Positions 8,086-60,401 of a stretch of DNA of 64,000 nucleotides are shown in pieces. The stretch comes from Colwellia sp. 39_35_sub15_T18 (GTDB lineage Bacteria > Pseudomonadota > Gammaproteobacteria > Enterobacterales > Alteromonadaceae): positions 62,001 through 126,000 of the forward strand of contig MAAE01000032.1 of NCBI GenBank assembly GCA_002162675.1. Direction: 5' to 3'. The notes beneath the pieces were generated by a model. That model did not search any database. It had not been told where the DNA came from and was given only the letters and a program-made list of their open reading frames with translations. The position numbers were made by a program, and so were the translations under genes. Position 1 is the first letter of the stretch, and the number at the start of each line of letters is the position of its first letter.

Positions 8086-8279
8086 CCATTCAGTAGCCAT
8101 TCAGTAGTAACTAAGTACAACTCAGAATGATTCAGCCATAAAATAGCCCATTGAGACATAATCTTACATGCCGATGTAGATCAATCAGGAACAATTCTAG
8201 ATTGGTCGAAAACGTCATTGCAGTGGTGTTTTAGGCTGGAACCCTATTTGGAAAACATCGATAAAGGCAGCAAAAAAAA

Positions 8280-8300
8280 GCCCGAATAATATATTCGGGC
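8280..8300. terminator. Hairpin GCCCGAAT-aatat-ATTCGGGC
   Basis: Perfect 8-bp stem preceded by an A-run on the + strand (T-run on the - strand). Confidence 0.6.
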
Positions 8301-8490
8301 TCAAGGGAATGGCTCAAAGGGGTTTGAGCCGTGCGCTAATTAACTACTTACAAATATAACAAAACACAATAAAAACATAACAAAAACAAAGTAAACATCT
8401 ACTATCAATATTTAGACGGACTTATATAATAAAAATAAGTATCGTTAAATATAAGTCCGTCAAAAGAGTGCGCGAGCATCACTTTTATCA

Positions 8491-21784: not shown

Positions 21785-24700
21785 ATGACCCCCAAACAAA
21801 TCAGTTTAGTTCAAATAAGTTGGCAAAAAGTACTGCCGATAGCCCCACAAGCCGCAGAAATTTTTTATGACACTCTATTTGAAATGGATCCGTCATTAAA
21901 ACCGTTATTTCCAAGTGATATGGCTGAGCAAGGCAAAAAGCTTATGGCAATGCTAGATACCGCAGTAAAGCTATTGGATCAACCTGACAAACTTATCCCC
22001 GCGGTACAAAAACTTGGGGTAAAGCATGTTGGTTACGATGTAAAAGCCGAGCACTACGATACGGTTGGTGCGGCACTAATAAAAACCTTATCAGCAGGTT
22101 TAGGTAAAGACTTCACTGCACCTGTAAAAAGGGCTTGGACAACAGTATATAACACGCTAGCTACTACTATGATTGATGCAGCAAATATGATTGATGCAGC
22201 AAACAACGTTGACAAAGGAACTAACATGGATATGAAAACTAAGCAAAATGCTCAAAATGATGAATTATCAGTGCAATTTCAAGGTGCATTAGCACAATCA
22301 GCTACAGCCTTTATTATGATAGATAGAGATTTTGAAATAACTTATGCAAATGAAGCTACAATGGTTTTGTTAAAAAAACATGAAGTAACCTTTGCCCAAA
22401 ACTGGCCCGGATTTAAAGCTGATGCCGATACGATTATAGGCACTAATATTGATAGCTTTCATAAAAATCCTGCGCATCAAAGAAAGTTACTTGATGATCC
22501 AAGTAACTTGCCTTATCAAACCGACATCAATATTAAGCATTTAACCTTTCAATTGAATGTCAGTGCTATTTCTGACTCAAATGGAGAGTACATTGGTAAT
22601 GCATTAGAGTGGCAAGATGTTAGTGCGGCAAGGTTACAGGCAAACAAAGCCGCACAACTGCAAGGGGCAATAGATCAGTCTGGTACCGCTAATATTATGA
22701 TTGATAGAGATTTTGTCATCACTTATGCCAATGATGCCACGCTTGCCTTGTTGAAAGAGCATGAAGTAACGTTTGCCCAAAATTGGCCGGGATTTAAAGC
22801 CGATCCTGAAGTTATTATTGGTACTAATATCGATAGTTTTCATAAAGACCCTGCTCACCAGCGCAAGCTTTTAGACGACCCCAGTAATTTACCTTACCAA
22901 ACTGACATTCAAATTAAACATTTAACCTTTCAATTAAATGTCACGGCAATCACGGACTCACAAGGGAAGTACATAGGTAATTCACTTGAGTGGCAAGATG
23001 TGACTGCGGCAAGGTTACAGGCAAACAAAGCCGCACAACTGCAAGGGGCAATAGATCAATCAGCTACGGCTAATATTATGATTGATAGAGATTTTGTCAT
23101 CACTTATGCCAATGATGCCACGCTTGCCTTGTTGAAAGAGCATGAAGCAACCTTTGCCCAAAATTGGCCGGGCTTTAAAGCCGATCCCGAGGTTATTATT
23201 GGCACTAATATTGATAGTTTTCATAAAAATCCCGCTCATCAACGCCAGCTTTTAGACGACCCCAGTAATTTGCCTTACCAAACCGACATTCAAGTGAAAC
23301 ATTTAACGTTTGAATTAAATGTCACGGCAATCATGGACTCAAAGGGGGAGTACATAGGCAATTCACTTGAGTGGCAAGATGTTACTGCGGCAAGGTTACA
23401 GGAAAACAAAGCCGCACAACTGCAAGGGGCAATAGATCAATCAGCTACGGCTAATATTATGATTGATAGAGATTTTGTCATCACTTATGCCAACGATGCC
23501 ACGCTTGCCTTGTTGAAAGAGCATGAAGCAACCTTTGCCCAAAATTGGCCGGGCTTTAAAGCCGATCCCGAAATTATTATTGGCACCAATATTGATAGTT
23601 TTCATAAAAATCCCGCTCATCAACGCCAGCTTCTAAACGACCCCAGCAATTTACCTTACCAAACCGACATTCAAATTAAACACTTAACCTTTCAATTAAA
23701 TGTCACGGCAATTATGGACTCAACAGGTGAGTACATAGGTAATTCACTTGAGTGGCAAAATGTTACCGCAGCAAGAGAAAAGTCCATAGAAGTAGGGCGT
23801 TTAAGCTCAGCCGTTAATGGCATGACCACTAACTTAATGATGGCAGACAAAGACGGTAATATTGTTTATGCAAACCCATCGGTTAAAACCATGTTGCGTC
23901 GCAGAGAAGTGCAATTACAAACAGTATTGCCCTCATTTAGAGTTGATACCATGGTAGGAACCAATTTTGATACCTTTCATAAGAACCCTGCCCATCAGCA
24001 AAACTTATTAGGTAATCCTGCTAACATGCCCTACGACACTGAAATTTCTGTGGCGGGGCTAACTTTTCAATTGATCGCTATCGCCTTAATGGATGAAGAA
24101 GGAAATCATGTCGGTACTGCCGTGCAATGGCTGGATTTAACTGAAGAAAAAGATGCACAAAGCCAAATTGAAAATTTAATTGGTGATGCAACGTCAGGCA
24201 CCTTAGATAGCCGAATAGACACCGAAGAATATCAAGGTTTTATGAAAGCTCTTGGTGAAAATATTAATGGTTTAATGGACGCCATTGTCGCCCCAATCAC
24301 TGATGCTATTAATGTAGCGCAAGCACTTGCTGAAGGTGATTTAACCCAAAATATGCGCAATGATTACGGTGGTGAATTTTTAGCGCTTGCTAATGCCATG
24401 AATGGCTCTATGGATAACTTGAGTAATATGGTTGATGAAATTCGTGGAGCCTCTACCAATGTATTTGATTCAGCAAGAGAAATTGCTCAAGGAAATAGCG
24501 AATTAAGTCATCGCACTGAATCTCAAGCTTCTAGCCTTGAAGAAACAGCATCGGCTATGGAAGAGCTAACAAGCACAGTACAACAAAATGCTGAAAACTC
24601 CACGGAAGCCAGTAAATTGTCTAACACCGTGATGGAAAAAGCGACAAATGGTGGTTCAGTAGTGCGCAATGCAATTACCGCGATGAGTGATATTAATAAA

Positions 24701-41732: not shown

Positions 41733-44447
41733 ATGTCAGATCTGGCCAAAGAAATAGTTCCAGTAAATATTGAAGATGAGTTAAAAACCTCCTATCTAGA
41801 TTACGCCATGAGCGTGATTGTTGGTCGTGCATTACCTGATGTTCGTGATGGTTTGAAACCAGTGCATCGCCGCGTACTATTCGCAATGGATGTTTTAGGA
41901 AATGATTGGAACAAAGCCTATAAAAAATCAGCCCGTGTGGTTGGCGATGTAATCGGTAAATATCACCCTCATGGTGATACCGCGGTATACGACACTATTG
42001 TTCGTTTAGCGCAACCTTTCTCAATGCGTTATATGTTGGTTGATGGGCAAGGTAACTTTGGTTCGGTCGATGGTGACAGCGCGGCAGCAATGCGTTATAC
42101 CGAAATCCGTATGGCTAAAATTGCCCATTCAATTTTAGCTGATCTTGATAAAGAAACCGTGGATTTTGTGCCTAACTATGATGGCACTGAATTCATTCCA
42201 GCGGTTATGCCCACTCGAATTCCCAATTTACTTGTTAATGGTGGTTCGGGTATTGCTGTTGGTATGGCAACAAATATTCCACCCCACAACTTAACCGAAG
42301 TGATTAATGGTTGTTTAGCCTTAATAGAAAATAGTGACATTACCTTTGAAGAGCTATTAACCCACATCCCAGGCCCTGATTTTCCAACAGCGGGTATTAT
42401 TAGTGGTCGTGCAGGCATTGAAGAAGCCTATCGTACTGGTCGCGGTAAAATAAAAATTCGTGCCCGTGCTGAAATCGAAGTACATGAAACGACAGGCAAA
42501 GAAACCATCATAGTGCACGAGTTACCTTTTCAGGTGAATAAAGCTCGTCTCATTGAAAAAATGGCTGAGCTTGTTAAAGATAAACGCCTTGAAGGTATTT
42601 CTGCCTTACGTGATGAGTCTGATAAAGACGGCATGCGCATGGTGATCGAAATCAAACGTGGTGAGGTGGGTGAAGTTGTTTTAAATAACTTATATAAACT
42701 TACTCAAATGCAAGTATCTTTTGGTTTCAATATGGTGGCATTAGGTAATGGCCAACCGAAAATATTCAACATTAAAGAAATGCTTGAAGAGTTTGTTTTA
42801 CATCGTCGTGAAGTTGTTACCCGTCGTACCATTTTTGAATTAAGAAAAGCACGTGATAGAGCGCACATCTTAGAAGGCTTATCAATAGCGTTAGCTAATA
42901 TTGAACCTGTTATTGAATTAGTGAAAAATTCACCTTCGAGAAAAGAAGCAGAAGAACAGCTTGTTGCTCAAGGTTGGGATCTAGGTAATGTTAGCGCCAT
43001 GTTAGAACGCGCAGGAACTCATGCGGCACGCCCTGAATGGTTAGAGCCTGAATTTGGATTTCGTGATAACAAGTACTATTTAACGCCTGTACAAGCTAAA
43101 GCCATTGTTGAGCTACAGCTTTATAAGTTAAGTGGTTTAGAACACGAAAAAATTCTAAATGAGTACAAAGAGTTATTAGAGCTGATCGCTGAGCTCATGC
43201 ATATTCTGGAAAACCCAGAGCGCTTAATGGAAGTTATTTGTGAAGAGTTAGTCGCTATTCGTGATGAATTTGGTGATGAACGTCGCACTGAAATTACCAA
43301 TGCGTCTCATGATTTATCATTAGAAGATTTAATTTGTGAAGAAGATGTTGTGGTAACACTTTCTCATGAAGGTTATGTGAAATATCAAGTATTAAGCGAT
43401 TACCAAGCGCAACGTCGTGGTGGTAAAGGTAAAGCGGCAACAAAGATGAAAGAAGAAGATTTCATTGAACGCCTGTTAATTGCCAATACCCATGATACGA
43501 TTTTGTGTTTCTCAGATCGTGGTAAATTATATTGGTTAAAAGTGTATCAACTACCTTTAGCAAGTCGAACGGCTCGTGGCCGTCCAATTGTTAATATTTT
43601 ACCGCTAGAGGCCGACGAACGTATAACCGCTATTTTACCGGTGCGTGAATATGAAGAAGATAAATATATCATTATGGCGACAGCGTCAGGTACAGTGAAG
43701 AAAACGGCCTTAACGGCGTATTCAAACCAACGTGCGAACGGTATTATTGCTTTAAACTTACGTGATGACGACACCTTAATTGGTGTGGATATTACCAATG
43801 GTAACAATGATATTATGTTGTTCTCTGATGCGGGCAAAGTTGTTCGTTTTAATGAAAAAGTTCGCGACAGTGAAACTGGTGAAATTAAACTCGACCCTGA
43901 AACTGGCGAACAACGTTGGGCTTTAAAACCTATTGGCCGAACAGGTACAGGTGTACGCGGTATTAAACTTGAAGGCGATCAAAAGGTTGTTTCACTGATC
44001 GTACCGAAAAATGATGGCCCAATTTTAACCATTACAGAAAATGGTTATGGTAAGCGCACAGACTTAGCTGAATATCCAGCGAAGAGTAGAGCAACTAAAG
44101 GTGTTGTTTCTATTAAAGTGAGTGAACGTAATGGTAAAGTTGTTGGTGCTGTGCAAGTGGAAGATCTTGATGAAATCATGGCAATTACCGATAATGGCAC
44201 TTTAGTACGCACACGGGTTAATGAAGTCAGTGTTATTGGTCGCAATACTCAAGGTGTTCGTTTAATTCGTACTGTTGAAGGGGAGCATGTTGTTGCTCTA
44301 CAACGTATTGATGAAATAGAAGAACCAGAGATCACTGAAGGTGAGGATTCCTCAACTGTAGAGTCCTCAGATGATGCATCATTAACAGACAACCCCGAGC
44401 ATAATGCCCAACAAGTGGATGACGAAAACACATCAAGCGACGAGTAA
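41733..44447 (+). CDS. gyrA: DNA gyrase subunit A
   Basis: 904 aa; [47 protein letters not shown]-terminal beta-propeller repeats. Confidence 0.98.
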
Positions 44448-44470
44448 TTATAAGCGTCGCACACTTTGAA

Positions 44471-44495
44471 AAGGCGGCTAATAACCGCCTTTTTT
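44471..44495 (+). terminator. gyrA Rho-independent terminator
   Basis: AAGGCGGctaataaCCGCCTT + T-run. Confidence 0.85.
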
Positions 44496-44700
44496 ATGTT
44501 CAGGATGAACGGTATGTCGCGGTGCCATGGATGGCAAAGAGCGTGTATGTTCAGGATGAACGGTATGTCGCGGTACCATGAATGGTAAAGAACGTGTATG
44601 TTCAGGATGAACGGGCAGTTTTTTGCTCCTGCAAAAACTGCACTTCCGCCATCCTTGGCGGTCGTATGTCGTGATCACATGGATGTGAAAGAGCGTGTAT
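44496..44700 (+). repeat. Structured palindromic repeat element, copy A: two 51-bp tandem units plus a third unit with an inserted hairpin module
   Basis: ATGTTCAGGATGAACGG at 44496, 44547 and 44598 (51-bp period); each unit holds a 6-bp stem; ends with AAAGAGCGTGTAT. Confidence 0.9.
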
Positions 44701-44751: not shown

Positions 44752-45852
44752 TTGAGAAAGAAAATGACTGAAGTTTTTAATTTTTGTGCTGGCCCTGCCA
44801 TGCTACCTAAAGCTGTAATGACAAAAGCGCAAAATGAATTTATTAATTGGAATGATACCGGTAGCTCTGTGATGGAGTTAAGCCACCGTAGTAGTATTTA
44901 TATGGCTATGGCGGCAGAGGCTGAAGCTGATTTGCGTGATCTTATGGCTATTCCTGACAATTACAAAGTCTTGTTTTGTCATGGTGGTGGACGCGGTCAA
45001 TTTTCTGCTGTGCCACTTAATTTATTACCGCAAGGTAAGTCTGCCGATTATATTGTTAACGGTTCATGGTCAAAAGCCGCCGCCGCTGAGGCTAAAAACT
45101 TTGGTGATATTAATGTCATTAATATCCGAGAAGAGCGTAGTGATGGCGCAACTAGCCTTACCGCAGTTAACCAATGGCCATTAAATAACGATGCAGCTTA
45201 TGTACACTATTGTCCAAATGAAACGGTTGACGGTATTGAAATTAATGATATTCCAGATACTCATGGTGTGCCATTAGTAGCTGATATGTCATCTACTATT
45301 TTATCTCATGAAATTGATGTCACTAAATTTGGTTTAATCTATGCTGGCGCGCAGAAAAATATCGGACCATCGGGTTTAACGCTTGTTATTGTTCATGAAG
45401 ATCTGCTTGGTCATGCTCAACTAGCAACACCTTGCATTATGAACTATCAAACTAGTGCTAATAATGACTCTATGTATAACACACCACCCACTTATTCGTG
45501 GTACTTAGCTGGCTTAGTTTTTAAATGGCTTAAAGAGTTAGGTGGAGTAAAAGCTATTGCGAAAATCAACAAAGAAAAAGCCGACTTGCTTTATCAAACC
45601 ATTGATAGCAGTAACTTTTACACAAATAATATTGAGCAGCAATATCGCAGTAAAATGAATATTCCATTTTGGCTTACTGATGAAAGCTTAAATGAAAAAT
45701 TTTTAATTCAAGCCGAGCAACAAGGTTTAACGGCATTAAAAGGCCATAGAATTGTTGGTGGTATGCGAGCTAGTATTTACAATGCCATGCCTATTGAAGG
45801 TGTACAGGCGTTAGTTGATTTTATGAAAAAATTTGAAAAGGGCGCTAGATAG
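44752..45852 (+). CDS. serC: Phosphoserine aminotransferase
   Basis: [40 protein letters not shown]; probable start at 44764 (MTEVFNF). Confidence 0.96.
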
Positions 45853-51811: not shown

Positions 51812-52507
51812 ATGTTAGATCCAAAAGTAGTTGTCGCGTTAGATTTTGATAAAAAAAATGATGCCTTATCATTTGTAGATAGAATCTCGCCAAGCGATTG
51901 TAAGTTAAAAGTGGGTAAAGAAATGTTCACCTACTTTGGCCCTGAATTTGTAAAAACCTTAACAGGGAAGGGCTTTGATGTTTTTCTTGATTTAAAGTTT
52001 CATGATATTCCTAATACGGTAGCAAAAGCGGTTACGGCTGCAGCCGATTTAGGCGTATGGATGGTTAATGTGCATGCTAGTGGTGGTAGTCAAATGATGA
52101 CTAAAGCCAAAGAAGCATTAATGCATTATGGTGACGATGCACCGTTACTGATTGCGGTAACGGTATTAACGAGCATGTCAGAAAACGACTTACGCGGTTT
52201 AGGGATCACAAAGACACCAGCAGAGCAGGTTGATTTCCTTGCTAGCTTAGCCAAACAAAGTGGCTTAGACGGTGTTGTTTGTTCGGCATGGGAAGCGGAG
52301 CAGCTAAAGTTGTCTTTAGGTAAAGAGTTTAAACTCATTACCCCAGGTATTAGACCTGCTGGCTCGGCAAAAGATGATCAACAACGCATAATGACGCCAG
52401 AGCAAGCAATTAATGTCGGTGTCGATTATTTGGTGATCGGACGCCCAATTACTAAAGCAGTAGACCCTCAGTTAGTACTAGAGCAAATTAATGCCTCAAT
52501 TACATAG
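51812..52507 (+). CDS. pyrF: Orotidine 5'-phosphate decarboxylase
   Basis: [42 protein letters not shown] at 51812 preferred. Confidence 0.96.
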
Positions 52508-52552
52508 GTGGGAACTTGTCCGCGCTTTGCTATTAAAGCAGTGTTGTTCACA

Positions 52553-52709
52553 CTGAACATACACGCTCTTTGCCATCAGGAGAATTGCGTCCTGCATTCT
52601 CTAAGTAGTCACATCCTTGTAACGTCATGGCACCGCGACATACGACCGCCAAGGATGGCGGAAGTGCAGTTTTTGCAGGAGCAAAAAATTGCCCGTACAT
52701 CCTGTACAT
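52553..52709 (-). repeat. Structured palindromic repeat element, copy B (inverted orientation relative to copy A)
   Basis: Reverse complement reads ATGTACAGGATGTACGGG...TTTTTTGCTCCTGCAAAAACTGCACTTCCGCCATCCTTGGCGGTCGTATGTCGCGGTGCCAT[insert]ATGGCAAAGAGCGTGTATGTTCAG. Confidence 0.9.
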
Positions 52710-52743
52710 AAAAAAGGCTTAGTTTCTCAACTGAGCCTTTTTT
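52708..52743. terminator. Bidirectional terminator between pyrF/repeat and gapA
   Basis: AAAAAAGGCTtAGTT-tctc-AACTgAGCCTTTTTT. Confidence 0.8.
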
Positions 52744-60300: not shown

Positions 60301-60370
60301 AACATACACGCTCTTTAACATCATCTTTGACATCAGGACAGAATGCGTTCAGCCCGTTCATCCTGAACAT
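60301..60370 (-). repeat. Structured palindromic repeat element, copy C (short form)
   Basis: Reverse complement reads ATGTTCAGGATGAACGGGC...GATGTTAAAGAGCGTGTATGTT. Confidence 0.85.
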
Positions 60371-60401
60371 AAAAAAGCCCCGCAAATGCGAGGCTTTTTA
60401 T
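60371..60401. terminator. Bidirectional terminator downstream of yccA
   Basis: AAAAAGCCcCGCA-aa-TGCGaGGCTTTTT. Confidence 0.8.

Follow-up and report, generated by a model that had tools for sequence, protein, structure and literature searches.

Repeats of the REP, BIME and REPIN type, which go together with RAYT transposases, are short intergenic palindromes that occur in many copies, form mosaics and tandem arrays and have strand-oriented hairpins (PMC3733652, PMC8266576), and CGTC-tagged REPs are dispersed palindromes that lack an associated transposase and have been reported mainly in alphaproteobacteria (PMC3733652). The target of group IIC introns lies directly after the hairpin of an intrinsic terminator (PMC7923331). 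The small RNAs CsrB, CsrC, RsmY and RsmZ (Rfam clan CL00106) consist of short-stem hairpins with the loop CAGGA(U/C/A)G at a spacing of about 25 nt, and the typical CsrB site is a hairpin loop containing CAGGA(U/A/C)G (PMC5027483). Here we describe a repeat that has features in common with all of these. It lies downstream of gyrA in a 64,000-nucleotide stretch of Colwellia sp. 39_35_sub15_T18 (contig MAAE01000032.1, positions 62,001 to 126,000; hereafter the window, whose coordinates we use), and comparison of its copies suggests that it is probably one of a family of miniature mobile elements, about 51 nt long, that are non-autonomous and strand-oriented.

Three copies of the unit occupy window positions 44498-44700, and, as read directly from the sequence, the array begins immediately after the T-run and TTAT of the gyrA terminator, with no base between. 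The features of the locus are these:

41733-44447, plus strand: gyrA, the owner of the terminator, with its stop codon 50 bp upstream of unit 1.
44469-44497, plus strand: intrinsic terminator of gyrA (AAAAGGCGGCTAATAACCGCCTTTTTT), whose 3' end is TTAT, the apparent target of the element.
44498-44548, plus strand: unit 1, with hairpin 1 at 44498-44510 (GTTC-AGGAT-GAAC), then the linker.
44518-44520 and 44541-44543: outer stem of hairpin 2 of unit 1, CGC/GCG.
44523-44536: inner stem of hairpin 2 of unit 1, TGCC-ATGGAT-GGCA.
44549-44599, plus strand: unit 2, with hairpin 1 at 44549-44561 and hairpin 2 at 44574-44587 (TACC-ATGAAT-GGTA).
44600-44700, plus strand: unit 3, with hairpin 1 at 44600-44612 and hairpin 2 at 44675-44688 (TCAC-ATGGAT-GTGA).
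44764-45852, plus strand: serC, the next gene and the anchor for the orthologous-site comparison.

The original prediction had placed two 51-bp units and an expanded third downstream of gyrA, which is what we find. The stems it listed, TGCCAT/ATGGCA (44523-28/44531-36), TACCAT/ATGGTA (44574-79/44582-87) and TCACAT/ATGTGA (44675-80/44683-88), are exactly as described, and the palindrome said to open every unit, GTTCA-gga-TGAAC, is present as GTTCAGGATGAAC at all three unit starts (44498, 44549 and 44600). With one mismatch allowed, this 13-mer occurs 4 times in the window against 0.29 expected, a count that 0 of 100 shuffles reach; the fourth match is at 60356 on the minus strand. Units 1 and 2 are 92% identical at a spacing of 51 bp, one GGA of unit 2 has decayed to GAA, and unit 3 is 101 bp long, being 51 bp plus a 50-bp insert (about 44615-44664). 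The original prediction did not note the start at a T-run and TTAT, the outer stem of hairpin 2, the recurrence of the insert as a module or the A(N)GGAY loops; the terminator/TTAT target and the likeness of the loops to CsrB are first pointed out in the present work. We note that 51 nt is 17 codons, so that tandem copies remain open in several frames; the spurious small open reading frames that result (for example 44478-44678, minus strand) are a hazard for annotation.

Copies in related genomes, for which the original prediction had called, are plentiful. A 102-base query, used for a first search of the genome itself and 61 relatives, gave 15 matches in the former and matches in 28 of the latter. 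A covariance model built from 53 distinct units raised the count in the Colwellia genome to 19 and found the repeat in 30 of 39 Colwellia species, in 48 of 296 species (19 of 99 genera) across the order and in 49 of 369 species (37 of 272 genera) across the class Gammaproteobacteria. One genome (G030) has several units with identical scores at different sites. An exact 26-mer scan returned Colwellia, Alteromonadaceae, Pseudomonadales, Cellvibrionales, Oceanospirillaceae and one Kordiimonadaceae assembly, although its sources are mostly metagenome bins, so that single foreign names could be contamination; the class-wide model matches include single-contig genomes. At the gathering cut-off no Rfam family matches the units, either in the window or in 20 related loci, plasmid and phage records gave no match to the unit, and the literature on the motif and on terminator-associated repeats yielded nothing specific. 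The repeat is real and widespread, occurring in marine and other gammaproteobacteria, and appears to be undescribed, being absent from Rfam and from any paper that we found. In another family of the order (L150, L152, L153, L187 and L202) the unit sits within a longer conserved mosaic that begins CAATCTAATCCATTGCCTGCCGC, is not preceded by a terminator and has GGA hairpins on both strands.

The position of the repeat is distinctive. A terminator lies directly before 64 of 92 arrays, compared with a background of 5.9% (P about 2e-56), and, in families not used for the model, before 17 of 28 copies, compared with 4.3% (P about 8e-17); many copies are orthologous, and both P values therefore overstate independence. 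The four bases before first units are TTAT in 92 of 103 cases, whereas tandem junctions mostly have GTAT or CGAT there, which is the element's own end. Of the 55 upstream genes that could be called, 50 point toward the unit, most often with the stop codon 41-70 bp before it, and downstream genes run in either direction. Sites that have no terminator often still end in TTAT, for example beside ribosome-binding sites (L028, L307 and L308). Two of these, L307 and L308, are phage-like viral contigs, in which units are found at a similar place but inverted, just upstream of the ribosome-binding site and 3' of TTTAT. At L028, L029, L039 and L066 the 3' end of the unit provides a ribosome-binding site, AAGGAG, a few bases upstream of an ATG, and the units there form a possible CsrA-repressible leader. 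No sigma-70-like promoter site was found within the unit.

The interval between gyrA and serC allows a single site to be followed across species. The unit is found there only in one Colwellia clade, is lost or decayed in some of its members, and is missing from the interval elsewhere; the gyrA terminator is kept in Colwellia species that do not have the element. On the serC tree four changes are needed, a pattern consistent with one gain followed by losses. The boundaries are exact: G018 reads TTTTTTAT, then the 51-bp unit (GTTC...GTGTAT), then TACTTT, whereas in G026 TTTTTTAT is followed directly by TACCTA. Species of the clade differ in hairpin 2, some having TGCC/GGCA and others TCAC/GTGA; the two arms have changed together at the orthologous site, which may have come about either through compensation or through conversion by a different copy.

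Each unit folds into two hairpins. Hairpin 1 has a 4-bp stem and the loop AGGAY; hairpin 2 has a 4-bp stem with the loop A(N)GGAY, an internal loop and an outer stem of 3-6 bp, which is 3 bp long in Colwellia and 5-6 bp elsewhere (GTCGC/GCGAC, GCCGC/GCGGC, CCAGC/GCTGG, GCAGC/GCTGC and GCTCAC/GTGAGC). In the alignment of the 53 units 95.2% of cells are paired and 9 of 11 pairs have changes on both sides; the 54 double-change cells compare with 13.7 after shuffling, 0 of 500 shuffles reach any of the measures, and sliding the partner abolishes the signal. Two further alignments, both fitted to the model and hence biased toward it, gave 223 double-change cells (112 distinct rows from the model) and 53 double-change cells with 1 one-sided change (33 rows from other families of the class). 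Over all alignments 8-11 of the 11 pairs are doubly changed, with 0-1 of 500 shuffles as high. Meanwhile the loops and linker are fixed: the two loops read A(N)GGAN in 101 and 100 of the 112 rows and in 29 and 28 of the 33 rows. In the window, only decayed copies depart from the loop A(N)GGAY.

The original prediction had attributed paired changes to selection on a folded RNA or cruciform DNA. Covariation of the kind that selection would leave is borne out, far above both the shuffled and the slid controls, but it could not be narrowed to RNA as against DNA. An excess of G.U over A.C pairs in the first 53 units (24 versus 8) was not reproduced in other sets (29 versus 20, p=0.25), and we dropped it as evidence for RNA. 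The covariation alone fits either RNA or single-stranded DNA as the selected form, and copies may also covary because they descend from different source subfamilies of a mobile element and not because each was repaired in place.

The insert of unit 3 and two other copies in the window show that further modules are nested in these repeats:

44615-44664, minus strand: module M2 (GCAGTTTTTTGCTCCTGCAAAAACTGCACTTCCGCCATCCTTGGCGGTCG) within unit 3, with two GGA-loop hairpins on the minus strand.
52546-52558, minus strand: degenerate start of a next unit (GTTCAGTGTGAAC).
52559-52707, minus strand: second, composite copy, a unit with M2 and with M3 in the hairpin 2 loop, adjoining a terminator and TTAT.
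52578-52625, minus strand: module M3 (ACGTTACAAGGATGTGACTACTTAGAGAATGCAGGACGCAATTCTCCT), which splits the hairpin 2 loop at CATG^GATG, as it does in other copies.
52708-52739, minus strand: intrinsic terminator directly before the composite copy.
60304-60368, minus strand: third, degenerate copy, with hairpin 1 intact and the rest rearranged.
60369-60396, minus strand: intrinsic terminator directly before the third copy.

M2 recurs in unchanged orientation inside units at L003, L009, L012, L016 and L021, and all copies inspected have it placed between hairpin 1 and the linker. M3 interrupts CATG^GATG in two settings, the hairpin 2 loop and a second palindrome family, and has also been found within the loop of a GTAGGCGGG REP. 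The modules are nested in one another, and M3 itself looks like a second mobile module, one aimed at the tips of hairpins. The second palindrome family (TTGCCATCATGGATGATGGCAA...GCACATGGATGTGC...), seen at L114 and at L005:507, has the same CATGGATG loops and occurs both empty and with M3 at CATG^GATG. At L335:1895-1965 and at L319, M3 lies exactly in the loop of a GTAGGCGGG REP adjoining a RAYT gene. A degenerate REP of the GTAGGCGGGAACTTGTTCGCG type, at window position 52504, adjoins the composite copy.

That the element is mobile is well supported by its dispersal, its exact boundaries and its presence or absence at a given site. Units form exact tandem arrays 3' of TTAT, oriented as the terminated gene and mostly at the end of the T-run. 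We suggest that the element would spread through a single-stranded hairpin intermediate and insert into the strand exposed at terminators, by means of machinery supplied in trans; terminator read-through would then give an RNA carrying pairs of CsrB-type loops and able to bind CsrA. Several observations weigh against this picture, besides the orthology that inflates the P values given above. We did not find a mobilizing gene, as 0 of 44 scanned Y1 transposase loci carry the unit, and no gene recurs beside the arrays, where only the repeat itself and the orthologous serC and gyrA neighbours do. The unit between gyrA and serC has been lost or degraded in some lineages, and that copy is therefore not essential. 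Wobble-pair strand counts show no consistent strand asymmetry across sets. Lastly, the GGA hairpins of M2 are on the minus strand, which a role purely in read-through RNA leaves unexplained.

The loops raise the possibility that the units act through CsrA. In the order-level set the hairpin 1 loops are AGGAT (65), AGGAC (18) and AGGAA (9) with a C-G closing pair, so that the unit loops match the CsrB repeat CAGGA(U/C/A)G, and CAGGATG is the most frequent form in the CsrBs that the Rfam model detects in the same order. The genome has a CsrA gene, as read from the protein, and read-through RNA could, on the strength of these loops, bind CsrA. No canonical CsrB was found in this genome, and a search for the GacA-type box TGTAAG-N-CTTACA gave a single symmetric site, which has no GGA-rich RNA next to it. 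Sub-threshold CsrC and RsmY matches in the window were too weak to count (the best CsrB-clan match, to CsrC, scores 16.3 bits against a cut-off of 61). In another family, the CsrB at L271 contains GTTTAGGATGAACGCTTATGCCATAGATGGC, which resembles hairpins 1 and 2 of the unit and is a possible origin of it, or a chance likeness. Loop conservation alone does not single out CsrA, because some TnpA_REP enzymes also read loops (PMC8266576).

Among the alternatives, the one that survives best, although we regard it as only a tentative possibility, is that the units are primarily host regulatory RNA, kept by selection as dispersed CsrA decoys or CsrA-regulated sites, with movement secondary; the more strong terminators are read through, the more CsrA such decoys would titrate. 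This is favoured by the loops, which are identical to CsrB repeats (the N of A(N)GGA may be any base or absent), and by the presence in each unit of two loops about 24 nt apart. Around arrays there are 185 GGA-loop hairpins on the plus strand and 25 on the minus strand, where 1.8 per strand are expected, giving a 7:1 excess of GGA loops on the strand co-directional with the upstream gene. Three of four Colwellia genomes with a weak CsrB match have no units, a comparison of small numbers that is phylogenetically confounded. Yet the positions that the units occupy, behind terminators, are little transcribed, orthologous copies are in some cases decayed or gone, M2 is inverted, and in other families units coexist with CsrB matches (G041 and G055). 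A combined reading, to which we give about the same limited credence, is that a class-wide mobile element made of CsrB-type hairpins inserts after terminators and that its read-through RNA might form a distributed, copy-number-variable CsrA sponge, which raises the question of whether mobile repeats alter the Csr regulon.

A somewhat more doubtful proposal is that the units are members of the REP/REPIN world, moved in trans by a RAYT or an IS200/IS605-type Y1 transposase. Strand-specific hairpins, insertion 3' of a fixed TTAT, direct tandem copies and the want of an obvious target duplication beyond AT would all fit, and certain TnpA_REP enzymes do read the hairpin loop (PMC8266576). Against it, the unit bears no GTAG or CGTC tag, the RAYT genes examined (L319 and L335) are flanked by their own GTAGGCGGG REPs, which are GTAG repeats, and not by the unit, and a Y1 match is missing from 9 of 20 unit-rich genomes. 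We rejected Y1 or RAYT as a directly associated mobilizer, Y1 loci being without units and RAYTs having REPs of their own; the GGA hairpins seen next to two RAYT genes turned out not to be units but M3 modules embedded in the REPs of the RAYT concerned. Mobility at the RNA level through a resident reverse transcriptase, in the manner of group IIC introns, which share the post-terminator target, is improbable, because the units have neither intron domains nor a reverse transcriptase and the insertion of M3 into REP and hairpin loops fits single-stranded DNA equally well. That mutational template switching between arms keeps the palindromes perfect with no selection on the fold is disfavoured and most improbable of all, for while few wobble intermediates are seen in distant copies (the 1 one-sided versus 53 double changes), stems of 4-6 bp are short for the process, the conserved loops and linker are unexpected under it, and three helices covary.

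Elsewhere in the window, positions 8273-8369 on the minus strand match the SdsR/RyeB small RNA above the Rfam cut-off (49.7 bits), and a tandem array at 22280-23775 (381-bp unit, 3.9 copies, 88% matches) probably represents repeated domains within a gene.

How, then, does the element compare with known systems? ERIC is an imperfect palindrome of about 127 bp in enterobacteria with a consensus of its own, and on that description of length and sequence the unit is probably distinct from it. CRISPR repeats, which the original prediction had set aside, are identical and separated by unique spacers, whereas the units abut head to tail with none between them. Classical miniature inverted-repeat transposable elements, which have terminal inverted repeats and duplicate their target site, also differ, in that the unit has two internal palindromes in direct order and its flanks share AT only. 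As in IS200/IS605-derived elements, insertion is 3' of a fixed tetranucleotide without a long target duplication, but none of the 44 Y1 loci offered an autonomous, tnpA-carrying copy with shared ends. Unlike group IIC introns, the unit is 51 nt long, has two hairpins only and a TTAT target, and contains no ribozyme. Unlike the CsrB/Rsm small RNAs, it is dispersed in 51-nt copies after terminators rather than forming a single small RNA gene, and it scores below the Rfam cut-off. CGTC-tagged REPs have another tag, stem and loop. With REP, BIME and REPIN repeats the unit shares its many intergenic palindromic copies, but, as the original prediction had it for BIMEs, it does not look like one of them: its consensus has no GTAG or CGTC tag but TTAT 5' of hairpin 1, no flanking RAYT or Y1 gene is linked to it, and it has two hairpins, fixed A(N)GGAY loops, covarying stems and a place after terminators. 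The best reading is of an element that is REP- or REPIN-like in lifestyle, without the GTAG tag or a linked transposase, and that could serve to test how elements of so small a size settle on safe places to insert.
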